Assembly: GCF_004005995.1 (NCBI RefSeq)
Contig: NZ_CP034767.1
Coordinates: 3,162,001-3,226,000, forward strand
From: Devosia sp. 1566
GTDB lineage: Bacteria; Pseudomonadota; Alphaproteobacteria; Rhizobiales; Devosiaceae
DNA length: 64,000 nt
Direction: 5' to 3'
Position numbers and translations under genes: made by a program. Below the pieces are notes generated by a model. That model saw nothing but the letters and a program-made list of their open reading frames with translations. It was not told where the DNA came from and did no database searches. This document shows, in pieces, positions 53,082 to 64,000 of the stretch; the first letter of the stretch is position 1; each line of letters starts with the position of its first letter.

Positions 53082-53155
53082 TGGGGAATAGTTCAACGGT
53101 AGAACAGCGGACTCTGACTCCGTCAATCTTGGTTCGAATCCAGGTTCCCCAGCCA
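53082..53155 (+). tRNA. tRNA-Gln (anticodon CTG)
   Basis: The cloverleaf is complete: acceptor stem TGGGGAA (53082-53088) with TTCCCCA (53145-53151), D stem GTTC/GAAC, anticodon stem GCGGA/TCCGT with loop CTCTGAC (anticodon CTG at 53114-53116), T loop TTCGAAT, discriminator G and encoded CCA (53153-53155). It is the insertion point of the island to its right. The gene is intact, as expected when the integrated element restores the 3' end. Confidence 0.97.
53130..53155 (+). other. Putative attachment site (tRNA 3' end)
   Basis: The 3' portion of tRNA-Gln, from the T arm to CCA, is the usual core site for tyrosine recombinases of integrative elements. An integrase gene starts 190 nt downstream. 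The second copy that would mark the far end is not in the window, so the exact core cannot be fixed. Confidence 0.45.
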
Positions 53156-53344
53156 CACTCTCAGCAAAACTCCAGGTTTTCCGCAGGTTTCAGCCAGCTC
53201 TAGCCGGCCAAATCGTGGGCTTTCCCACCGCTTTGGCCACCAGATTGGCCACCGGCGTCGTCTGCTTGGCTGCGAAGCAAGTCCGAATCTGGACGGGGAC
53301 GCTTCGCACCTGCTGCAGCGAGACCGGTCATGACGGAGAGTGTC

Positions 53345-55243
53345 ATGGCTTCGGATAGCTTCCTGCGCCTCAAGGGGCGCACCACCTACTTCCGCCGCAA
53401 GATTCCTGGCGACTTGATGAGTCGCCTTGCGTCAACTGAAATCTGCTTCAGACTAGGTGTTCTCAACCGAGATTCGTCGGTGCAGCTTGGGCGGCGCCTG
53501 GCCGTCGCGGTCGATGCGTTTTTTGTGTCTGCGCGTAGGGATAAAATGTTGTCATCACCTGACCTGACTGCTTTGCTGGGAGCCGCTCTGGCCGATTGGC
53601 GCGCCAGTGTGCAGCCTGTCCCCATTCCGCTGGTCTCGACCCGCCAACAGGCCAAGACCATGGCGTCGCTGGCTGATGGCCTATTGCGGCAGCAAGGTGA
53701 TGGCTACCCAGTGATCGATGATGCCTTCATCACCGAGAAATTTGGCTCGGCGGGCATTGCTGTCCCGTCAGACCCGGTTACACGACGCGTCGCCAGCACT
53801 GTTCTAACCACAGGCATGGCAGCACATTATCTGGACACGGCGGCGGCCATCGCCAGACAGAGTGGGCTCGACCGGGGTTTCCGAAAGCTCCCAGCTGCGC
53901 AGTGGGAAGAGCGCGCGGAGCGGCTTCTGGCGCCCTATCACCACGCGGACGGACTAGATCAAGTCGTGACGCCACGATTGGCGCCGCCCGATCAGGCGCA
54001 AGCTGCGGCGCTCGTCACGCCGATCGGCCGACCGTCCTCGTTGCCTGGCGCCATGTCGACCAAGTTCGAGCGCGAGGCGGGGACGAGCTTTTCAACGCAA
54101 GCGCCCTACCTCGTTGGCGAGCGGGTCAAGGCCAAGCAGGTTGGGCCGGATGCGGTCATCAACCTTGGTCCCTCACTGAGGCTTTGGCTACAGATTTGCG
54201 GCGACTTGCACATCGGCAGTTACTCTCGGCAGCACATGGCCGAATATCGCGCCATGTTGATAGATACTCCAAAGATTTATTGGCGATCCAAAGCGGAGCA
54301 AGAAAAAACTATTCTGCAAGTCATTGTCGAGGCGGCGGCGGCAGGACCGAACTACGTCCGAGTGTCACCCAAGACCGTCAACAAACATCTGTCGAATATG
54401 AATTCGGTATTTGAGGCAGCCAAGGTTGCTTCGGCCATAGATCGAAACCTGCCGAATTTTGCCGAGGGTCTCTATCTCGAGACCGGAGTTGAGGTGAGCG
54501 GGCTGGAGGAGAACGAAGAGCGGCCGGGCTATACCCGCGATCAAGTAGAACTGTTCTTCCGCCACCCGGTCTACGCGGGCCGGAAGAGCGCCTATTTTTA
54601 CAACGACACTGGCACCGTCGTCATCAGGGACGCCATGTACTGGCTCCCTCTGCTGGCGGCCCATGAGCTGATGCGGCGTGAGGAAATCTGCCAGCTCAAG
54701 GTGAGGCATGTTCGTGAGGAACACGGCATCTGGTTCTTCGACCTTTTACACCGCGAGATTAAGCTGAAGCGGGCTTCATCCCGTCGCAAGGTGCCGCTGC
54801 ATAATGCGATCCTTGAACTGGGCTTTCTTGACGAGGTTGTGGCGGGTCGTAACCCGGATGAGCTGTTGTTTCCCGAACTCGCGCCCAATGCGAAGGGCTC
54901 GTTCAGCGACGGTGTCGGCAAACGCGTAGGCAGGATGGTCGATGCCCTGGGCATCAAGTTGATCCGAGTAGACGCTTCCGAGGCAGATGGAGCCCTTCAT
55001 CCGTTCCGCCACCACGGCATAACGCAGCTCGAAAACACCCATGAAGTCAAAAGCGGCATCATTGACGCACTTACTGGCCACTCCTCAAAAGACCGCAAGA
55101 GCGAACGGCGCCGTTACACCGACGAAATATATCTCTCAGTACTGCACGACACGATCAACAAGCTGGACATCCCCGTGGATTTGAAGCTGCTCAATCAATG
55201 CTGGAGACAGCATTCTCTCTATCAGAAAGGGGGCGCAAGCTAG
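53345..55243 (+). CDS. Tyrosine recombinase/integrase of the island
   Basis: The 632-residue protein has an N-terminal DUF6538-like segment (FLRLKGRTTYFRRKIPGDL), a long middle region with a SAM-like core-binding domain (about 270-370), and a C-terminal catalytic domain. Likely catalytic residues are Arg444 (HELMRREEI), His552 and Arg555 (HPFRHHG), His579 (TGHSS) and Tyr591 (RRRYTDEI). It should integrate the island at tRNA-Gln. ATG 53345 is preferred; ATG 53330 is five codons earlier. Its TAG stop shares the CTAG at 55240-55243 with the stop of the convergent gene. Confidence 0.9.
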   Translation: MASDSFLRLKGRTTYFRRKIPGDLMSRLASTEICFRLGVLNRDSSVQLGRRLAVAVDAFFVSARRDKMLSSPDLTALLGAALADWRASVQPVPIPLVSTRQQAKTMASLADGLLRQQGDGYPVIDDAFITEKFGSAGIAVPSDPVTRRVASTVLTTGMAAHYLDTAAAIARQSGLDRGFRKLPAAQWEERAERLLAPYHHADGLDQVVTPRLAPPDQAQAAALVTPIGRPSSLPGAMSTKFEREAGTSFSTQAPYLVGERVKAKQVGPDAVINLGPSLRLWLQICGDLHIGSYSRQHMAEYRAMLIDTPKIYWRSKAEQEKTILQVIVEAAAAGPNYVRVSPKTVNKHLSNMNSVFEAAKVASAIDRNLPNFAEGLYLETGVEVSGLEENEERPGYTRDQVELFFRHPVYAGRKSAYFYNDTGTVVIRDAMYWLPLLAAHELMRREEICQLKVRHVREEHGIWFFDLLHREIKLKRASSRRKVPLHNAILELGFLDEVVAGRNPDELLFPELAPNAKGSFSDGVGKRVGRMVDALGIKLIRVDASEADGALHPFRHHGITQLENTHEVKSGIIDALTGHSSKDRKSERRRYTDEIYLSVLHDTINKLDIPVDLKLLNQCWRQHSLYQKGGAS

Positions 55244-55947
55244 CGTGGCACCTTTAAGTCGTACTCGGCTTCAAGCATTTCGATGATCTTGACGAGTGCT
55301 CGATAGATGCTGAGTTCATTGGCGCCGAAACGGTAGTGGCCGGTGATAAGTTCTTCAGGTTGAAGCCCGTCCATGCTGGTACGGCGCTTCTCTGGCTCGC
55401 CATTGCGTATCATCGTCACTGGGTAACGAAACGATCGACCCTCGCCCTCCCACACACCCCAGGAACCGTAGTTTTGAATGTTGTCGTTGTAACACTCGTT
55501 GCCGATTATTGCTTCCATACGGACAAGCAGATCGCGGAGCGGGCCAACCTTTTCGCGTGTGTCGCGAACGTAGCGAAAACTGCTGAGCCCGCCTTCGATC
55601 TCATCACGTTGTGACGTGAACCAGTCGTGTTTCTGGGCGGCCTGACGTTTTAACTCGGAGACCGTCTCGCGGGGCACGTCTTCTGGCCACGCGCTCAGCT
55701 CTGCAAAGGCTTCTACTTCTTCCGCAACAAAGGATGCCTTCTCTTCCCATAGCGAACTATAGCCGTCCGCGGATTCTAGAATCTGCTCTCTGACCCCTTC
55801 TGCTGGGCCGAAGTCCAGCTCCAGGATCGCCGCATATCCATCGCATTCGGACTGAATGAAATAGTCCTGCATGTCCGTATCGCCTGGCCATTCTTCCTTG
55901 GCGGCGAGCTTAATGGCAGCAAGGATATCGCCAGGAACGTCCGACAT
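55240..55947 (-). CDS. Unrecognised protein, last gene of the defence operon
   Basis: The 235-residue soluble protein is acidic (many Glu/Asp), with aromatic stretches such as IQNYGSWGVWEGEGRSFRYP and a helical first half (about 60-140). No signal peptide, membrane helix or nuclease motif is visible, and I recognise no family. It starts 1 nt after the Res stop, so it is almost certainly co-translated with Res. It may be an accessory, inhibitor or immunity partner of the restriction complex; this is inference from position only. Confidence 0.75.
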   Translation of the reverse strand: MSDVPGDILAAIKLAAKEEWPGDTDMQDYFIQSECDGYAAILELDFGPAEGVREQILESADGYSSLWEEKASFVAEEVEAFAELSAWPEDVPRETVSELKRQAAQKHDWFTSQRDEIEGGLSSFRYVRDTREKVGPLRDLLVRMEAIIGNECYNDNIQNYGSWGVWEGEGRSFRYPVTMIRNGEPEKRRTSMDGLQPEELITGHYRFGANELSIYRALVKIIEMLEAEYDLKVPR

Positions 55948-55948
55948 T

Positions 55949-58927
55949 TCAGGTGTGCTCCATCACATCATCTAGTTTGGTGGCCTTCACGTACCGGGCA
56001 GGATTCTCGTTCACAGCCAAAGCTTCGAAGTGCGCAACGCCGCACGCAATCTTGGCTGCCTCCTGGTCTCGCAGGTCGTCGGTGAAGAGGCTGCCCTTGG
56101 TCTCGACCACGAAATAGAGGCGCTCCTGACCATCGACCTGCACCAGCACTGCCCAGTCGGGGTTGTAGCTTCCCAACGGGGTCGGGACTTTGAACCAGCC
56201 GGGCAGCTTGGCATAGACCTTCACCGCCTCGTTCTTTTCCATCTGTTCGGCAAAGGTGCGCTCGACGCCGCTGGAGTCATAGACAACGTGCTCGAACACG
56301 GACTTCTTGGTGTCTTCGAGCATGTTCTTGAGGTAGCCGGTCAGCTCCTCCTGCTGGAACAGCTCCTGGGCATAGAAGTGCTCGTCGCCGATGCGCTGGT
56401 ATTTGATGCCATCGACCAGCGCGAGGCGCTTGGTGCGGTTGATCAGCTCGCCAGCCTGCTCAATGAAGGCCTGGGGGTTGCGCTTGAAATCTGTAAGGCG
56501 ACCGCTTCCGGTCAGGATCGTCACCAGGCTGCGCCGGGTCAGCTGGGTGCGGTCCTGCAAGTCGGTCAAGATATCGGGCAGGACGATGTCGCCCTCCTCG
56601 ATAGAGACCGGCCCGGAGGTGGACGTTTCCGTCGCGATGACGCCACCCTGGCCGATGGCAAGGTCAGCCTTGCGAATAGTTGCCCGCGCCTTCGCTATCG
56701 GCGCGCCTTCGGCGATAGCCTTAACGCAATCGGCAACAAGCTTGTCGTTGTCGAATTGGACGCGGTAGGTTGTCAGATGCTTGACCCGGTCCCACAGCGC
56801 CTGAAATTCCGGGCTGTGAAAGACTTCCTTGCGCACGGCTATCGGACGGCGTTCGTCGGCGTTCTTGATCTCAAGCCGGCCGGCTATCTTGCGCAGAACA
56901 TCCCGGACCTGGGGCAAGTGGGCGGCGTAGGCGTCGGGCAAGGTCAGCGTGCCGTTCTTGATGGCCGTGCGTAGCGTGTCCTGCACCTTACCCTTAGTGT
57001 CGATGAACCCCTCGCCCTTCAGCCAGTCGTAGATGGCGGCCGATTCATCGAATCCAAGCATGACGGTGGAACCGTCCTCTTGCTGAATCGGGATATTGGC
57101 AAACTGGTGCTTTTCGACAATGCCGAAGCGGATGCCGGTATCGGCCTCGATTTCCTTCTGCAGATTTTCGGCGAAGGACTCGTAGCTCTCGGTGGCGATC
57201 ACGGTGAGCGTATTGACCTCAAAGCCCCGTAGCCGCTCGCCCTTCTGGTTGACACAAAGGCGCAGGCCACGGCCGATGGTCTGGCGGCGCTCGCGTTCGG
57301 TGCCCATTTCGCGTAGCGCACATATCTGGAAGACGTTGGGGTTGTCCCAGCCTTCCTTGAGAGCGGAATGGGAGAAGATGAACTTGAGTTTTGTGTCGAA
57401 ACTCAAGAGCTTTTCCTTGTCCTTCATGATGAGGCTGTAGGCGCGCTCGGCATTATCACGGTTGGACTGGTTATTCTCGGCTGTGTCGGACCAACGTTTG
57501 TTCTTGTCGATTGAGAAGTAACCGTCATGAACCGCTTCAGCGTCGGAGGTTACGTCCACTTCCTTGAACAGGCTTACAAAGTCGGGAAGCTTTGCGGCAC
57601 GCCGATACTCTTCCTCGAAGATGGTGGCGTATTTGCCCTTAACGGCGTTTCCAGCCTCGTCATATGAGCGGTAATGCTCCACGGCGTCGATGAAGAACAG
57701 GCTCAGCACCTTGATGCCGAGCGGCGCAAGACGCTTTTCCTTCTCTAGATGCTCTTGGATGGTGCGGCGGATCATCAACCGCTTGATGGCGTCGGCATCA
57801 ACGCCACCGACGGCTTCGCCTACACTGAGAAACGCCTCGGAACCGTCAGTCTTTACTTCAAGGAAGGGTGTATCGCCCACCCGGATTTCGCCAATGCGGC
57901 AATTGTTATAGAGGGCGCGGCCGGTTAGCTCTTCCAAGTCATCGCCATCCTGGACGGTGACTTCCTGGCGCTGGACCTTGGTGCCACGCTGCGCGTCAAG
58001 CTCCACGCGGGCGGTAATGGTGCCGCCTTTGTTGCTGGCGGATAGGAACCGGAGATAGGCCTTGTTGTGGCCGCCCTCGACTTCAAGCGAAGCCACCTCG
58101 ATCTGCTTGACCAGCTTCCGCTCATAAGCGTCGACGGCATCGAGTCGATAGACCATGTGATGCTTGTTGGCGTGGGTGGCCGAATAGCGCAGGGTGCAAA
58201 GAGGATGCATGGCATCCAAAGCCTGCTTGCCGCGCCCATCAAGGCCACCGTCGACGCTTTGCGGTTCGTCCACGATGATGATCGGGCTTGTGGCGCGGAT
58301 CAAGTCGATGGGGGCTTCACCGCCGGTTTTCTCGCTATCCTTATAGAGGTTGTTGACGTCCTTCTTGTTGATGGCGCCGACGGTCACCACCATGATCTGG
58401 ATGGTCGGGCTAGTAGCGAAATTACGCACCTGGCCAAGCTTTGCGGAGTCGTAGAGAAAATAGTCGGAGGGCTGACCGGAATAGAGTCCCTTGAAATGAT
58501 CCTCAGTGATCTGAAGGGTCTTATAGACCCCCTCCTTGATCGCAACGGACGGCACGACGATAACGAACTTGGTAAAGCCGAAGCGCTTGTTCAGCTCGAA
58601 GATGGTGCGCAGATAGACATAGGTTTTGCCGGTGCCAGTTTCCATTTCGACGGTGAAGTCGCCAGAGGCGAGACTGCTGGAAGGCGGCAGGCCGTTACGG
58701 AGTTGGATGGCTTTTAGGTTGTCGATGATCTCATCATCGAGCAAGGCTAAACGGTTGCCGATGCCGCGCTCGTTTTCGACCAGTCCAAGCTCACCCTGCG
58801 CACCCGTGGACGCGCGGCGGGTGACAGTGAATTCGGTGCGGTTGACTTCCTGACCAGCAAACAGGTCGCAGACAGCTTCAATAGCAGTGTGCTGATAATC
58901 TAGGTCGGGCTCGAAGTGGAGCTTCAT
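55949..58927 (-). CDS. Type III restriction enzyme Res subunit (helicase-nuclease)
   Basis: The 992-residue protein has an SF2 helicase core: Walker A METGTGKT (95-102), DEPQ box (220-223), SAT (249-251) and C-terminal helicase motifs HSALKEGWDNPNVF and RQTIGRGLRL. A PD-(D/E)xK nuclease lies near the end, Asp924 (YNPDWAVL) and Glu942/Lys944 (VVETKGS). All key residues look intact. Such subunits translocate or switch along DNA with ATP and cleave when two unmethylated sites meet. Start ATG 58927, GAGGG upstream, 10 nt after mod. Confidence 0.92.
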   Translation of the reverse strand: MKLHFEPDLDYQHTAIEAVCDLFAGQEVNRTEFTVTRRASTGAQGELGLVENERGIGNRLALLDDEIIDNLKAIQLRNGLPPSSSLASGDFTVEMETGTGKTYVYLRTIFELNKRFGFTKFVIVVPSVAIKEGVYKTLQITEDHFKGLYSGQPSDYFLYDSAKLGQVRNFATSPTIQIMVVTVGAINKKDVNNLYKDSEKTGGEAPIDLIRATSPIIIVDEPQSVDGGLDGRGKQALDAMHPLCTLRYSATHANKHHMVYRLDAVDAYERKLVKQIEVASLEVEGGHNKAYLRFLSASNKGGTITARVELDAQRGTKVQRQEVTVQDGDDLEELTGRALYNNCRIGEIRVGDTPFLEVKTDGSEAFLSVGEAVGGVDADAIKRLMIRRTIQEHLEKEKRLAPLGIKVLSLFFIDAVEHYRSYDEAGNAVKGKYATIFEEEYRRAAKLPDFVSLFKEVDVTSDAEAVHDGYFSIDKNKRWSDTAENNQSNRDNAERAYSLIMKDKEKLLSFDTKLKFIFSHSALKEGWDNPNVFQICALREMGTERERRQTIGRGLRLCVNQKGERLRGFEVNTLTVIATESYESFAENLQKEIEADTGIRFGIVEKHQFANIPIQQEDGSTVMLGFDESAAIYDWLKGEGFIDTKGKVQDTLRTAIKNGTLTLPDAYAAHLPQVRDVLRKIAGRLEIKNADERRPIAVRKEVFHSPEFQALWDRVKHLTTYRVQFDNDKLVADCVKAIAEGAPIAKARATIRKADLAIGQGGVIATETSTSGPVSIEEGDIVLPDILTDLQDRTQLTRRSLVTILTGSGRLTDFKRNPQAFIEQAGELINRTKRLALVDGIKYQRIGDEHFYAQELFQQEELTGYLKNMLEDTKKSVFEHVVYDSSGVERTFAEQMEKNEAVKVYAKLPGWFKVPTPLGSYNPDWAVLVQVDGQERLYFVVETKGSLFTDDLRDQEAAKIACGVAHFEALAVNENPARYVKATKLDDVMEHT

Positions 58928-58937
58928 GGCCGGTCCC

Positions 58938-61037
58938 TCACAGACTACGCACGTCGAGAATGCCGTTCTGGTTCAGGATGGCAGCCATATTGGTCTTGGC
59001 GACGTCGTCTGCGAAGCTGGAATCTTTAAACACGACGCGGGTATCGACGGCCGGTGCCAGCGCCTTGCGCCACGCGACAATACCGTTGGCGAGCGCCTCC
59101 ACCACGTGTCCAGTGAGGCCATCACCAAGGCAAACGATCAAGGTCCCGCCGCCGATGGAATGAACGGACTTACCCGCAATTTCTTTTTGTTCAATAGGAA
59201 CGCAAAGATCCAGGCCCAGCTTTAGCAGGAGTTCATAGAGAACGTCCTGCTCTGTCCGGCCTTGAACCAGGTGTTCCGAATTGGCAAGCAGGGTGCCTTC
59301 AATGTCCGACGGGGTCGGGTCCCATGAGCGGATGTTTGACTGGGCAAGTTTGAACACGCGAAAACCAAGATCGCTTGCTCCGACAGTAACTTCGCTTTCG
59401 ATAGTTTTGGCCGCCCTGCGCAGTCGCTCCTTTGTTAGTTCGGCTATGTTTCGCGGCTTTCCAGCCTTATCGCAGAAGGCAGCAGCGGCCTTTTGCTCTT
59501 TTTTGCTTGGATCGAGTGGCTCCGGTAGCTGAACAAGAATGAATCGTCGATTGCCCTGATCTCCCGCGTTTAGAGACCAGACAGACTGACCGGTCGTGCC
59601 GCTTCCAGCAAAAAAGTCCAAGATCATCGCGTCTTTGTCGGCAGCAGTCGCATACTCAATCAGCCGCGCTATTTCTACATGGTCCTTTGGATTGTCAAAG
59701 ACCTTCGCCCCCATCAATCGCCGCATGTACTTGGCAGTAACCTGCGCTTGCTTGTAGAAATAAGAACCGCGCACCTGTGTAGCGAGCTCATCCTCAGCGT
59801 CGGCATCAACCAGGTCAGCGGCATCATCTTCTTCGGTGTCTTCGAATTTACCTATGAACTCGAAGTCTATTGGTCGAATGTGAGATTTTCTAACTGGCGG
59901 CTCGGTATGATCTTCGCGAAATTCTACGATTCCTAGTTCGATCATGCGGGCCATCGTATCTGGTTGAGCGAAGACCCACCCTCTCTCAGGGACTGCGCAT
60001 GGTAGTTTGGTCACCGGATGGATAACGTCGTACCTAGGTCCACCACCTCCCGGCCAGGAAATATTATCGTCGCGCCACGGACCATGCTTGTCGACGTGTT
60101 TATAGCGACTCCATTTTTTCGATGGGTGAGTTTTGGGAAGCTCAGAGTACCACTTCTGAAGTTCTGTCTCGACGGCAGCATCATCAGAGCCGTTCCGCTC
60201 GCGGAGAATGACGTACTGCTGCCAGATCTCACGGGCGCCAGGCTTTTCTTCTCGCCATTTGACATTCTTTTCGTTCAGAAACCCCAATGACGAAGCATAG
60301 ACAACAACATACTCGTGACCAACAGAGACTAGCTTCGCATCATTCTTACGACTCTTCTCCCAGACAATGGTCGCTATAAAATTCTCCGCCCCAAAAATCT
60401 CATCGCACAAGAGGCGTAGGTTCGCCAATTCTTGATCATCAATGCTGATCATGACTACGCCATCCCTCTTTAGAAGGCCTTTCGCCGCCTTCAAGCGGGG
60501 TAGCATCATGCTTAACCAGTCGGTGTGAAAACGCCCCGAACTCTCGGTATTGGACGTAACCTTCACGCCGCCTTCGAGCTGTCGTGTAAGTTCAAGGTAG
60601 CTTTTAATGCCGTCTTGAAAGTTGTCCGGATAGACGAAGTCCTTGCCTGTGTTGTACGGTGGATCAATGTAGATGAGATTTACTTTTCCAGCGTAGCTCT
60701 TTCGAAGAATCTTGAGCACCTCTAGGTTGTCGCCCTCAATAACAAGGTTCCTGGTCGTATCCCAATTCAGACTGTCCTCGGGGCAAGGCAACAGCGTACC
60801 GGTGGAGGGTGCCAGCGCAATCTGACGCGCCTTGCGCTTGCCGTGCCAGTTGAGCCCATATTTTTCGTCGTGCTCATCAACGGCGCCGCCGAGAAGTTGC
60901 TTCAGAACTTCAAAATCGACCGTGCCTTCAGTGAATGCCTCGGGGAAGAGCGTGCTCAGAGCCTCGACATTGCCAGCAACCAGATCTGCGCTCTGGGTTT
61001 CTGGGTCATTGAGGGTTAGCTTTTCGATCTTGGGCAT
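58938..61037 (-). CDS. Type III-like Mod DNA methyltransferase (beta class)
   Basis: The 699-residue protein has the catalytic motif IV DPPY at 125-128 (LIYIDPPYNTG) before the SAM motif FAGSGTT at 476-482, the order of beta-class N6-adenine/N4-cytosine methyltransferases, as in Mod subunits. The region between (about 225-430) is the probable target recognition domain and is locally AT-richer, as expected for a swapped domain. It should protect host sites and, with Res, give sequence specificity. ATG 61037 is preferred over GTG 61043. Confidence 0.92.
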   Translation of the reverse strand: MPKIEKLTLNDPETQSADLVAGNVEALSTLFPEAFTEGTVDFEVLKQLLGGAVDEHDEKYGLNWHGKRKARQIALAPSTGTLLPCPEDSLNWDTTRNLVIEGDNLEVLKILRKSYAGKVNLIYIDPPYNTGKDFVYPDNFQDGIKSYLELTRQLEGGVKVTSNTESSGRFHTDWLSMMLPRLKAAKGLLKRDGVVMISIDDQELANLRLLCDEIFGAENFIATIVWEKSRKNDAKLVSVGHEYVVVYASSLGFLNEKNVKWREEKPGAREIWQQYVILRERNGSDDAAVETELQKWYSELPKTHPSKKWSRYKHVDKHGPWRDDNISWPGGGGPRYDVIHPVTKLPCAVPERGWVFAQPDTMARMIELGIVEFREDHTEPPVRKSHIRPIDFEFIGKFEDTEEDDAADLVDADAEDELATQVRGSYFYKQAQVTAKYMRRLMGAKVFDNPKDHVEIARLIEYATAADKDAMILDFFAGSGTTGQSVWSLNAGDQGNRRFILVQLPEPLDPSKKEQKAAAAFCDKAGKPRNIAELTKERLRRAAKTIESEVTVGASDLGFRVFKLAQSNIRSWDPTPSDIEGTLLANSEHLVQGRTEQDVLYELLLKLGLDLCVPIEQKEIAGKSVHSIGGGTLIVCLGDGLTGHVVEALANGIVAWRKALAPAVDTRVVFKDSSFADDVAKTNMAAILNQNGILDVRSL

Positions 61038-61055
61038 TGGCACGGCTTTCTCAGG

Positions 61056-61826
61056 TCAAATGCTTTGCATTATGTTGGCAAGTTCAGCTTCCACACGCTG
61101 AATCGCCAAGTTCAAATCGACAAGGCGGTTCAACTGCTTCTCGCGCTTGGCCTTGGCGCGCAAGGCTTCAATTTCCTTGGTCAGGCGCGAGTGGTCGTCC
61201 AGGGCCGCGCGCCGCCGCGAAATGGCGGTGCTGTCGTTTGTCGCCACAAAGGCGCCGGACACCTGCGCGGCGTTTAGTGCTTCGATGCGGGCAAGCCAGC
61301 CGGAATAGAGGGCATGGAGGTCTGCCCGGTTCTGCTGCGGCAGGGCAAGGCTTTGCAGGAAGGCGCGCTGCACGACATCTGCCGGATCAAGCCGCTGGTC
61401 AGTGGTGGCGACAACATGGTCGATGACGACGCGATCGACCTCGTTCTGGGCCTTACGTTTATGCGCGACGGATATGACAGCGCCGTTGGCGTTGGCGGTG
61501 ATGAGCAGTACCGGGTATGGAACCGCACGGTGGATCAGCTCGATCAGCCGCGTGCTCTTCGCCGCCGGGCGAAAGGCGCAACCGATGATGGCGATTTCCA
61601 GATAGTCCCGTGTTTCATCTGCAAAAGACGGCACACCGATGGTCGCGGGCTTGCAGGCGGCAAACCATTGCAGCTCGTCAATTCCGTCCTGGATAGCGCG
61701 TTTGTCGGCGGCTGTCGGCGCGCCTTGTTCTACCAGCATTTTTTTGGGGACGCGGGCATCGACCCGCGCACTGGCCGGCAGGGCCAGCGCTTCGACAATG
61801 GTGCCAATAACGCCGTCGGCGGTCAT
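61056..61826 (-). CDS. DUF4391 domain protein
   Basis: The 256-residue protein has the DUF4391 core: VPKKMLVEQGAPTAADKRAI, DELQWFAACKPATIGVPSF and a following EIAIIGC / IELIHRAVPYPVLL block. A strongly charged coiled coil occupies about 200-245 (TKEIEALRAKAKREKQLNRL). Function unknown. Genes of this family are, from general recollection, found beside helicases and restriction-type methylases. ATG 61826 overlaps the helicase stop (ATGA), with GGAGGG upstream. An adaptor between the helicase and Mod-Res is an attractive but untested idea. Confidence 0.85.
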   Translation of the reverse strand: MTADGVIGTIVEALALPASARVDARVPKKMLVEQGAPTAADKRAIQDGIDELQWFAACKPATIGVPSFADETRDYLEIAIIGCAFRPAAKSTRLIELIHRAVPYPVLLITANANGAVISVAHKRKAQNEVDRVVIDHVVATTDQRLDPADVVQRAFLQSLALPQQNRADLHALYSGWLARIEALNAAQVSGAFVATNDSTAISRRRAALDDHSRLTKEIEALRAKAKREKQLNRLVDLNLAIQRVEAELANIMQSI

Positions 61827-64000
61827 GGTCCCTCCGTTTCGGGCACGACGACCAAGAAGGCCACGACCTCAAAATCGTTGATCCCGGCAAACTCACCCTT
61901 AAGGGCATGAGTACCACCTGGCGAAAATAGACTGGCGACGGCCCGCTCCTCGCTCTTGCCGGCTATCGAGGCAACGGCGCGGGCCAGAAGCTTCTGGTAC
62001 GGTTCCATATCGCGGCCGAAACGGGTGGCGTTGTCGAATCGACCATAGGCTTGAGCATCGGGCAGATCGCGCCCGATGCTCAGCTTCTTGAGCCGGTCGA
62101 GTACCTGCTTGGCCTGGGTATAGGGCAAGTGGACCTCCCCCTCGTCGCTGACATGTACGACGAAATGGGGGCTCAAGGGGTAGCCTGGTTCGGCGGCGCT
62201 TTCTGCGGCTTCGCCAACCGCCCTCAGGCAGAAGATGGCGCCGGGTGGGATGGGATTGTCGCCACTACCGAATTGATCGTCCGGCGTCGTGACCACGGCA
62301 TAGGTTCCAAGCGGCAAGGCCTCCAGCCGCTCTCTGTTCTCCCGCAAATAGCCGGACAGATCGATGCGGAAGTCATTGAGGGTAAGATCGGCAATGGAAA
62401 CGCCGCTGGATAGGTCTTCGAGGTCGATTACGGCGTCTTGCATCTGCTGCAGCTGGGCGCGGCGGTATTCCAGGTCGTTCATCTGGTTGCCGGCCTGAAA
62501 CTCGATGACGTTCTCCTCGCCGGTGGCGGAAACGTCCAGCAGCACCATGCGACCGCTGACGCGGGATTCCAGATCAAGATATTCGTCCAGCTCCATATTA
62601 GGCCAGAAATTGACCAGTTGGATTCGGGCGTTGGTTGAACCGATGCGGTCCACGCGGCCGAAGCGCTGAATGATCCGAACCGGATTCCAGTGAATGTCGT
62701 AGTTCACCAGGAAGTCGCAGTCCTGAAGGTTTTGGCCTTCGGAAATGCAGTCGGTGGCAATGAGCAAGTCGATTTCCCCTTCGCCCGCCATATTGGCCGG
62801 GCGCTCCTTGGAGCGGGGTGAGAAGGCGCTGAGGATAGAACTCATATCCGAGCGAATGCCGCCAAGCGTGGTCTTGTTGGCGCCGGTGCCGGTGACGACG
62901 GCGGCGTTGACCCCGTGGGTGTCCCGCGCCCAACCCGCCAACTCCCTATAGAGGTAGTCAGCCGTATCAGCGAAGGCGGTGAAGAGCAGGATTTTGCGGT
63001 TCCCCGCATTGAGCGGCGCCGTCACCTTGGCGGCGATCAGCTTTCTTAGGTCAGCAAGCTTGGCATCGCGGTCAGCGGTCACCGCCTGGGCCGCAGAGCG
63101 GAGCGTCATCAACCGGTTTCGATCTTCGATCAGGTCTTGCTGCCAGCGGACACGGTCAACGTCTTGCAAGAGGACCTTGACCTTGCGGCCGACAAGCAGC
63201 GCCTCGAAGGCCGCATCATCCACGTCGATGTCATCAACCGCCAATTCATCGACGGAATCGTCGTGGTTCTCGATCTTGGACAGCAGGGAATTCACATCGT
63301 CCAGCTGGCGCTTGATCGTAAGAGAGAAGGAGGCCACAGAACTTTCCATGCGCTTCAGAATGTTGACGCGCATCAGGTGGATCAGGCTCTCCTCTCGATC
63401 TGCCTGGCGGAAAATGCTCTCGCCGCCACGAATGCTGGTGCTGTATTTGGCGTCATAAGCGGCCTGCTTATGTGGCAGTACATACCGCATCGGCGCATAG
63501 GCGCCGAGCTTGAGGCGTCTGATCTCATTGTTGATCTCGCGGATCGGGCGGAACTCGCCGGCAAGATCAACGTCGGACTTGATGTTGACCGGACGTAGCC
63601 GGTCCGGAAACTGGCCGGTTTCGGCAGTGCCATAGTACCGCTGCACATGCTTGCGGGATCGTGCGATGGTCAGCATGTCCAGGAGCTTGAAGTAGTCAAA
63701 GCCCAGCATGTCCATGAGACGTGACGGTCGGCGTTCGGTCTCGGCGAGGTCGAGCCACCGGTTGAACTGGCCCTGCGCCTTGCGGATCGTCGTCTCTATG
63801 CTGGCAATGCCATGGCCCGCCAAGGCCATGTCGTCGCCTTCGGTCATGAAGGCAATCTGGTTCTTCAGATCAGCCAGCCGATTGTTGACCGGGGTGGCCG
63901 AGAGCATCAACACCTTGGTCTTTACGCCTGCCTTGATGATGCGCTTCATCAAGTGGTCGTATCGAGTGTCGTGGTCTCTATGTGTCGTCTTGTTACGGAA
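61823..64000 (-). CDS. SNF2-type helicase, C-terminal part (cut at window edge)
   Basis: The frame is open to the window edge (over 725 codons), so the start and the Walker A half are missing. Visible parts are motif III LMLSATPVNN, a long insertion with coiled-coil character, and the second RecA-like lobe ending in QRFGRVDRIGS (motif VI), followed by a C-terminal extension of about 250 residues. It belongs to the SNF2-like double-stranded DNA translocases used in several defence systems. It is the first visible gene of the operon. Confidence 0.88.
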   Translation of the reverse strand, partial: FRNKTTHRDHDTRYDHLMKRIIKAGVKTKVLMLSATPVNNRLADLKNQIAFMTEGDDMALAGHGIASIETTIRKAQGQFNRWLDLAETERRPSRLMDMLGFDYFKLLDMLTIARSRKHVQRYYGTAETGQFPDRLRPVNIKSDVDLAGEFRPIREINNEIRRLKLGAYAPMRYVLPHKQAAYDAKYSTSIRGGESIFRQADREESLIHLMRVNILKRMESSVASFSLTIKRQLDDVNSLLSKIENHDDSVDELAVDDIDVDDAAFEALLVGRKVKVLLQDVDRVRWQQDLIEDRNRLMTLRSAAQAVTADRDAKLADLRKLIAAKVTAPLNAGNRKILLFTAFADTADYLYRELAGWARDTHGVNAAVVTGTGANKTTLGGIRSDMSSILSAFSPRSKERPANMAGEGEIDLLIATDCISEGQNLQDCDFLVNYDIHWNPVRIIQRFGRVDRIGSTNARIQLVNFWPNMELDEYLDLESRVSGRMVLLDVSATGEENVIEFQAGNQMNDLEYRRAQLQQMQDAVIDLEDLSSGVSIADLTLNDFRIDLSGYLRENRERLEALPLGTYAVVTTPDDQFGSGDNPIPPGAIFCLRAVGEAAESAAEPGYPLSPHFVVHVSDEGEVHLPYTQAKQVLDRLKKLSIGRDLPDAQAYGRFDNATRFGRDMEPYQKLLARAVASIAGKSEERAVASLFSPGGTHALKGEFAGINDFEVVAFLVVVPETEGP

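Follow-up and report, generated by a model that had tools for sequence, protein, structure and literature searches.

The window, by which we mean the whole 64,000-nucleotide stretch of DNA analysed here, carries near its right end five genes on the minus strand, encoding an SNF2-type helicase (HEL), a DUF4391 protein, the Mod and Res subunits of a type III restriction–modification (R–M) system and a protein of 235 residues (Table 1). All five genes of the original prediction were present, and profile scans upheld their names (PF14335 for DUF4391, N6_N4_Mtase for Mod, ResIII and RE_endonuc for Res, SNF2 and Helicase_C for HEL). The reading frames of HEL and DUF4391 share 4 nt, DUF4391 and Mod are separated by 12 nt with the first GTG start of Mod or by 18 nt with an inner ATG, and gaps of 10 nt and 1 nt follow between Mod and Res and between Res and the 235-residue gene; this agrees with the predicted spacing, in which the 18 nt corresponds to the inner ATG. 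As had been anticipated, the upstream end is cut at 64000: HEL runs on past the window, with its N-terminal PLD-fold domain outside it.

Table 1 Features of the locus, numbered from the first letter of the window.
Feature	Position	Strand	Description
HEL	61823-65035	minus	SNF2-type helicase, 1,070 aa, with a pseudo-PLD domain at its N-terminus, which lies beyond window end 64000
DUF4391 protein	61056-61826	minus	256 aa; PF14335 235 bits; putative adaptor
Mod DNA methyltransferase	58938-61043	minus	701 aa; N6_N4_Mtase; PDLC03634 686 bits; EcoP15I Mod E 7e-72
Res type III endonuclease subunit, ATP-dependent	55949-58927	minus	992 aa; ResIII + RE_endonuc; PDLC03647 1,290 bits
235-aa protein	55240-55947	minus	probable passenger; no family match
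Island integrase	53330-55243	plus	PF00589 25.3 bits, slightly below cut-off 27.1; beside tRNA-Gln
tRNA-Gln	53082-53155		
Left attachment repeat	53135-53155	plus	3' end of tRNA-Gln; exact copy at 76372-76392, past the window

The tRNA-Gln gene, the integrase and an exact pair of 21-nt repeats of the tRNA-Gln 3' end confirm the predicted integrase-bearing island, which the repeats bound at about 23.2 kb. The integrase gene and the 235-residue gene are convergent and overlap by 4 nt, and the island cargo includes a MobA/MobL relaxase and a T4SS coupling protein.

By homology and motif content, Mod and Res are an EcoP15I-like type III R–M pair with intact motifs. Mod carries the DPPY and FxGxG motifs (DPPYNTG at residue 127, FFAGSGT at 477) in addition to its homology to EcoP15I Mod, and its middle part (approximately residues 211–470) is hypervariable and presumably recognizes the target. 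Res matches EcoP15I Res (E 1.5e-69) and combines SF2 ATPase motifs with a C-terminal PD-(D/E)XK domain (RE_endonuc, PF19778); its motifs are GTGKT at residue 98, DEPQ at 220, NPDW at 922 and ETKG at 942, and the nuclease residues are conserved over 60 aligned rows. A classical type III system is described as a pair of adjacent genes, mod and res (PMC3874151). EcoP15I and EcoP1 thus share homologous subunits and common motifs with the window locus but have neither HEL nor DUF4391, the two extra conserved genes that accompany mod and res here.

We retrieved 80 named loci through DUF4391. HEL lay upstream of DUF4391 in all 76 that were testable, with the 4-nt frame overlap in 48 of the 76 (longest-ORF starts), and HEL–DUF4391–Mod–Res was complete and in order in 57 of the 59 fully testable named loci. 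This order was found on chromosomes and plasmids of Pseudomonadota, Bacillota and Actinomycetota and in one archaeon. Among 398 sampled genomes from the phylum of the window, DUF4391 was matched in 23, 22 of which also carry a window-type Res (the exception, G022, has DUF4391 without it), and DUF4391 was present in 20 of the 21 genomes with a strong HEL match. The converse association is weaker: DUF4391 occurs in 22 of the 37 genomes with a window-type Res, and the sequence examined upstream of Mod exceeded 4 kb in 8 of the 15 without a DUF4391 match, so Mod–Res can persist without the HEL–DUF4391 module. The possibility raised beforehand that most homologous loci would lack the helicase and DUF4391 is therefore contradicted by the loci found through DUF4391 and, less strongly, by the genomes found through Res. 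A Res tree labelled for 'no HEL' (12 rows) was set aside, loci L171, L172, L179 and L186 ending at contig ends, and its 9 changes were not used.

HEL, DUF4391, the Mod core and Res co-diverge (r 0.83–0.92 over 58 rows, a comparison that has no unlinked-gene control). The Mod middle does not track the other parts (r 0.08–0.14, 58 rows), although its correlation with the Mod core is still higher than that of most permutations, being reached in 4 of 999. Other genes are nested between core genes in operon loci, several of them from families seen in defence (GmrSD, HNH, RhuM, Abi_2 and TIR).

The 235-residue protein found no tblastn match in any of 84 loci and no family in profile scans; it has 221 relatives, with plasmid homologues in other restriction contexts. 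Judged by this distribution, its gene is a local passenger outside the conserved unit, which by gene order is one of four genes, HEL–DUF4391–Mod–Res, and not five. A five-gene system was rejected, the 235-residue gene not being conserved alongside the core: of the larger machine originally proposed, HEL and DUF4391 hold their place with Mod–Res, and of the five-gene order only four genes recur. Searches of the open-licence PubMed Central literature listed no paper that describes these four genes as a unit, and passages of PMC10059834, PMC11514479 and PMC8565338 contain nothing on it.

The best PADLOC match of HEL was C3a139 (HKD+Snf2; 395 bits, residues 195–1063), and its helicase motifs are GLGKT at residue 255, DESHN at 341, SATPVNN at 379 and GRVDRIG at 793. 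Lower-scoring matches to DrmA (85 bits) and DrmD (129 bits) fell on HEL alone and were taken as shared helicase core. The earlier hint of DISARM was not borne out by the proteins scanned: between HEL and the far repeat, 8 proteins were compared with the DrmA and DrmB models and none matched, and DrmB was likewise absent from the rows shown for a PADLOC scan of 14 island proteins, some island ORFs lying outside that scan. Among sequences of solved structures RapA scored best against HEL, the listed stretch being just 48 residues. In an AlphaFold2 model (pLDDT 89.8) residues 1–198 adopt a PLD fold, yet the catalytic HxK was absent at the aligned position in 74 of 74 HEL rows, and in HEL itself Gln 106 occupies a spot near the H position of HxKx4D. 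The HKD pattern was likewise missing from all 11 further loci searched and from all 19 DUF4391-bearing loci of another, partly overlapping set; matches to HxKx4D away from the aligned position (L033 residue 38, L105 residue 15) were taken as chance. With the HKD residues missing, we rejected an active PLD nuclease, and from alignment and model HEL looks like a motor with a nuclease-dead PLD-fold domain.

The AlphaFold2 model of the DUF4391 protein (pLDDT 95.2) gave no Foldseek match in the PDB, nuclease or other, at E ≤0.001 when searched whole, and its profile reached a best E of 0.068 against PDB sequences. The VIA list for the model was dominated by the C-terminal helical hairpin (residues 196–256), with the N-terminal part barely probed, and we do not claim a new fold for that part. 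A Foldseek row pairing DUF4391 with Cas12a3 (47 columns, probability 0.99) was rejected, as it covers the hairpin only. In open-licence PubMed Central, DUF4391 appeared solely as a table row without context. The protein does resemble the N-terminal domain of Eco57I-type methyltransferases.

This likeness comes from three sister loci (L182, L242 and L243), in all of which the HEL relative, 41% identical over its full length, retains intact HKD residues. The gene that follows, again overlapping HEL by 4 nt, encodes an Eco57I-type methyltransferase with a DUF4391-like N-terminal domain. By hhalign, that domain matches DUF4391 with probability 93.6–93.7 and E 2e-7 (6 control pairs gave E 0.11–0.5), over only 90–110 columns, and the full-length fused protein of L242 fell below the Pfam DUF4391 model at E 0.01. 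Unlike the window locus, the sister loci have no Mod or Res match and carry the domain fused to a methyltransferase. L242 and L243 have an additional, third gene whose product resembles a RecF/SMC-type ATPase (SMC_N 32 bits in L242, under the cut-off of 40), and the L182 methyltransferase gene is broken by a frameshift. Searches with methyltransferase P0006 gave no further sister loci in 385 genomes of a class sample, a search with no positive control; 6 plasmid records, all with query coverage below 80%; and 3 hits among 150 relatives of G071, G071 included. We found no name for these loci.

Helicase-bearing type III systems have been reported. Murray et al. (2021) describe helicase–Mod–Res m4C systems including Eco86II and BspHIV, in which an SF2 helicase gene, given no function by those authors, closely precedes mod and res on the 5' side, an arrangement present in over 500 genomes; partially purified Eco86II yielded Mod and Res peptides and no helicase peptides by mass spectrometry, and its helicase was dispensable for methylation (PMC8259958). 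The window locus likewise has an SF2 helicase gene preceding mod and res. In the NCTC86 locus, however, the Eco86II helicase (SNF2, 963 aa, DrmD-like, PDLC02619 664 bits) is separated from Mod by 20 bases, leaving no room for DUF4391, and it aligns with HEL at 26% over 600 columns in the helicase core only; by these comparisons it is of a different family. Eco86II Mod (1,040 aa) matches window Mod (E 3.6e-36), and Eco86II Res (1,126 aa) has no significant BLASTP match to window Res (E 0.22). Where Eco86II, the one such system compared, has its helicase directly 5' of mod, the window has DUF4391 between HEL and Mod. The suggestion of a known but little-studied class thus stands for helicase-bearing type III systems at large and falls short for Eco86II, with its different helicase and no DUF4391.

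HKD domains N-terminal to helicases occur elsewhere. Type-2 BREX-related systems have one on a Swi2/Snf2 helicase next to an N6-methyltransferase, the position held by the PLD-fold domain of HEL, but there it is described as the primary effector and is accompanied by DUF499 and DUF3780, which were unmatched in the proteins scanned here (PMC12839542). MORC-linked type-III-like restriction operons also place an HKD phosphoesterase N-terminal to an SF2 helicase; there, in a few cases, a Rad25-like (Res-type) helicase carries it in place of its nuclease (PMC2292703), whereas the window encodes a separate SNF2 protein with a dead HKD beside an intact Res. SauUSI, NgoAVII and BfiI are nucleases, unlike HEL, which lacks the HKD residues.

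We propose, at about an even chance, a four-component type III R–M system in which HEL is the motor and DUF4391 its coupler to Mod–Res. By homology, Mod would place its mark on a single strand of an asymmetric site, and Mod–Res would cut DNA that lacks the mark. HEL would act as a dsDNA translocase whose PLD-fold domain, having no active site, may serve docking or DNA binding, and DUF4391 would tether it to Mod, as the similar domain fused to a methyltransferase in the sister system suggests. HEL would drive along the DNA or clear a path on it, such that Mod–Res meets a second site or cuts where passive sliding fails, and Res would remain the sole nuclease of the core. HEL may, by analogy, not be a stable subunit, because purified Eco86II contained no helicase peptides. 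More tentatively, and somewhat short of even likelihood, HEL–DUF4391 could be a portable motor and adaptor, an HKD–SNF2 restriction helicase minus its nuclease that was taken over by Mod–Res and turned a passive-sliding enzyme into a four-subunit active translocating machine, the same adaptor domain coupling the intact-HKD version to a type IIG-like methyltransferase.

Hitch-hiking of neighbours beside an ordinary type III system in a mobile island would account for the 235-residue gene, ArdC and other island genes of that kind; for HEL and DUF4391 it is contradicted by their conserved order across replicons and phyla, and we consider it very improbable. The persistence of Mod–Res without the module, the many other nested genes, several of defence-seen families, and cutting by Eco86II Mod–Res without detectable helicase (PMC8259958) would suit a separate second defence layer, with the Mod mark as self signal, DUF4391 or HEL as effector (for example, a nuclease or a replication block) and Mod–Res acting alone. 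We think this unlikely: the PLD domain of HEL has no HKD, DUF4391 is almost never found without window-type Res in the sampled genomes and, as a weak point, DUF4391 has no Foldseek match at E ≤0.001 to a nuclease or any other PDB entry.

Doubtful to a similar degree is a host guard, in which HEL–DUF4391 would take Mod–Res off the host chromosome or remodel it there, or do so while DNA is being replicated or enters the cell, as in restriction alleviation or RapA-like recycling. The short RapA match, the helicase peptides missing from purified Eco86II (PMC8259958) and the dispensability of the module in evolution are consistent with it, but the sister system joins an intact-HKD member of the HEL family directly to a methyltransferase, which suits a role in attack.

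Type III enzymes are the known case of restriction by ATP-triggered one-dimensional sliding (PMC11142916). Helicase-bearing type III systems are already known (PMC8259958); the four-gene unit with DUF4391 and the HEL family is unnamed so far in the open-licence PubMed Central literature searched. Because the PADLOC models, as scanned, recognize Mod, Res and HEL and miss DUF4391, annotation would probably list these loci as plain type III. The genes nested between core genes are a source of candidate effectors. If the four-component reading is true, a widespread lineage would retain a further DNA motor whose nuclease is dead, giving type III restriction a second way of working and the unnamed DUF4391 domain family a role.

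In the window, the original prediction had described a five-gene row comprising an SNF2-type helicase (HEL, which we found to start with a pseudo-PLD domain), a DUF4391 protein, the type III methyltransferase Mod, the endonuclease subunit Res and a 235-residue protein; its intergenic spacings proved correct when we re-located the genes on the minus strand of the host genome (one contig, 4.17 Mb; window at 3162001-3226000). Upstream of HEL, the island carrying this row encodes a 192-aa protein and an ArdC-type antirestriction protein (PF08401, PF18818). Past the latter are genes for a relaxase of the MobA/MobL type and for a T4SS coupling protein, which make the island look mobilizable. The ArdC-type gene lies near the restriction system here, and one was also found inside the fetched stretch of four relatives (L039, L048, L049 and L061). 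A 281-aa gene close to the island's right boundary gave weak PtuB-like matches (20.9 bits) and perhaps encodes an HNH-type protein.

Features of the island and of related loci (positions relative to the window unless a locus is named; those above 64000 lie beyond it)
Feature	Location	Strand	Remarks
HEL	61823-65035	-	1,070 aa; part past window edge filled in from genome
DUF4391	61056-61826	-	
Mod	58938-61043	-	
Res	55949-58927	-	
235-aa gene	55240-55947	-	
Integrase	53330-55243		adjoins tRNA-Gln
Exact 21-nt repeat of tRNA 3' end	53135-53155 and 76372-76392		bounds 23.2-kb island
ArdC-type gene	65803-66726		
281-aa gene	74286-75131		
DrmD-like SNF2-Mod-Res arrangement	L177 13112-15961, L249, L250, L251		inserts between genes in L250
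AIG2-like protein in Mod-Res gap	L035, L039, L040, L041, L043, L045, L106		

Using a DUF4391 alignment (A1, 22 rows) as query against named species genomes, we found at least 336 relatives and read the loci of the best 80, a set skewed to the closest relatives. HEL lay upstream on the same strand in all 76 of these loci with at least 300 nt of upstream sequence (the other four have less), Mod followed DUF4391 in 74 of 78, Res followed Mod in 65 of 69, and the complete ordered four-gene unit was present in 57 of the 59 in which DUF4391 is flanked by 3.3 kb or more on its upstream side and 5.5 kb or more downstream. The exceptions were L034 and L036, without Res, and L055 and L078, without a recognized Mod or a Res in order, apart from a fragment of Res in L078; no recognized Mod was seen in L085 and L096 within 2.2 and 0.8 kb of downstream sequence, respectively.

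A less biased set of 398 genomes sampled from the window's phylum, partly overlapping the first since some contigs of equal length recur in both, contained DUF4391 in 23 genomes, HEL in 21 (at least 400 bits) and Res in 37 (at least 440 bits); these cut-offs remove 5 of 26 HEL genomes and 7 of 44 Res genomes passing E 1e-20. Res accompanied DUF4391 in 22 of 23 genomes (G022 being the exception) and DUF4391 accompanied strong HEL matches in 20 of 21. Three DUF4391 genomes had no strong HEL match: in G022 and G257 the gene is at a contig end, and G018 has a HEL fragment. The converse was weaker, with 15 of the 37 Res genomes giving no DUF4391 match. In eight of these 15, more than 4 kb was read upstream of Mod; among the eight, Mod is a remnant in L170, Res is broken in L176, a different, DrmD-like SNF2 gene overlaps Mod in L177, and a weak helicase match lies upstream in L181.

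Plasmid records were matched by tblastn with DUF4391 (54) and with the helicase of the sister locus L182 (112). Eleven of 12 plasmid regions read after these searches have the four genes in order, counting a Raoultella plasmid whose Res is cut off by the end of the stretch, and three of the 11 have one additional gene within the row; the twelfth record, from Neotabrizicola, stops inside the row. Hosts among the 11 include the archaeon Methanomethylovorans hollandica as well as Mycolicibacterium, Lactiplantibacillus, Enterococcus, Leuconostoc and Listeria innocua; in the last, the gene at the DUF4391 position is annotated hypothetical. Four more plasmid regions have the same order (in Acetobacter, Res is disrupted by an insertion element), and an E. 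coli version occurs in 10 of 5,426 genomes, nine covering at least 80% of the query. We conclude that the four-gene unit is real, widespread and coherent. The four genes are also present in the record of Erysipelothrix phage phi1605 (L246), with mef(A)/msr(D) and a gene for a recombinase close by.

The fifth gene of the row belongs to an unnamed family, for which we found 221 relatives; of the 120 listed, those that are named come mostly from Alphaproteobacteria. In Sinorhizobium americanum one relative closes a row of methyltransferase, helicase and GIY-YIG genes, and another lies upstream of a type I restriction-modification operon in S. meliloti.

Gaps longer than 250 nt separate HEL from DUF4391 in 13 of 76, DUF4391 from Mod in 26 of 75 and Mod from Res in 36 of 65 of the best-80 loci. 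Their open reading frames clustered into one group of 13 (scanned member, GmrSD), one of seven (scanned member, GGACT/AIG2-like) and a remainder of smaller groups and single sequences. A scan of 13 nested proteins put 11 above the Pfam cut-off, as GmrSD (2), AIG2/GGACT, HNH, RhuM, DUF1016-YhcG, Abi_2, UvrD-like, TIR, AAA_30 and Macro; that of L090 fell below it and that of L038 matched no family. PMC3710099 links restriction operons in general with such genes. GmrSD-type (type IV restriction) genes sit within the type III operon in L043, L067, L074 and others, in the HEL/DUF4391 or DUF4391/Mod interval (judged from the one scanned member of the 13-protein cluster); E. coli STEC309 also has a DUF262/DUF1524 gene within its SNF2-Mod locus. 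The protein of about 170 aa recurrent in the Mod-Res gap is gamma-glutamylcyclotransferase-like (AIG2; one scanned).

Where all four proteins were full length (58 rows, one of them the window's), pairwise distances correlated for HEL-Res (0.92), HEL-DUF4391 (0.92), HEL-Mod core (0.89), DUF4391-Res (0.88), Mod core-Res (0.85) and DUF4391-Mod core (0.83), with none of 999 permutations as high. The middle part of Mod (window residues 211-470) gave r of 0.08-0.14 against the other components; of 999 permutations, 65 were as high for HEL, 37 for DUF4391, 63 for Res and 4 for the Mod core. This is the pattern that a common chassis with exchangeable target recognition would predict, although the correlated distances of the core, compared among linked genes only, could also be explained by common ancestry alone.

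By its enzymes the window system is a member of type III restriction-modification, to which a conserved two-gene presumptive motor module, HEL plus DUF4391, is added. We found no description of this module in the open-licence PubMed Central papers searched, and we infer its mechanism. A helical hairpin of DUF4391 (residues 204-256) superposes on a short segment of Cas12a3 (9hlx; Foldseek probability 0.99 over 47 columns at 28% identity), which is probably a likeness of common hairpins. In the sister loci L182, L242 and L243, an HKD-SNF2 protein and a DUF4391-like/Eco57I methyltransferase form a compact system for which we found no name; in L242 and L243 the next gene encodes a RecF/SMC-like ATPase.

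Murray et al. (2021; PMC8259958) describe a pair of m4C type III systems in which a helicase-like gene precedes mod on its 5' side, report helicase-like gene, mod and res near one another in more than 500 genomes without establishing the helicase's role, and find that gene dispensable for methylation. The Eco86II locus of E. coli NCTC86 (SNF2, 963 aa; Mod, 1,040 aa; Res, 1,126 aa) has, unlike the window's unit, no space for DUF4391. The helicase of Eco86II, DrmD-like at 664 bits, has only the SNF2 core in common with HEL (26% over 600 columns). The Mod of Eco86II is a weak match to the window's (E 3.6e-36), and the Eco86II Res gave no significant BLASTP match to the window's. Further loci have this second arrangement, without DUF4391, of a DrmD-like SNF2 gene followed by Mod and Res, and in several E. 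coli the small HTH gene preceding the SNF2 gene is annotated mads1. According to the same paper, mass spectrometry of partially purified Eco86II detected no helicase, a warning that SNF2 motors may not be stable subunits. Because the Eco86II and window helicases differ, and Eco86II is without DUF4391, type III systems appear from these comparisons to have acquired SNF2 motors at least twice, and such repeated uptake makes a role for these motors more likely.
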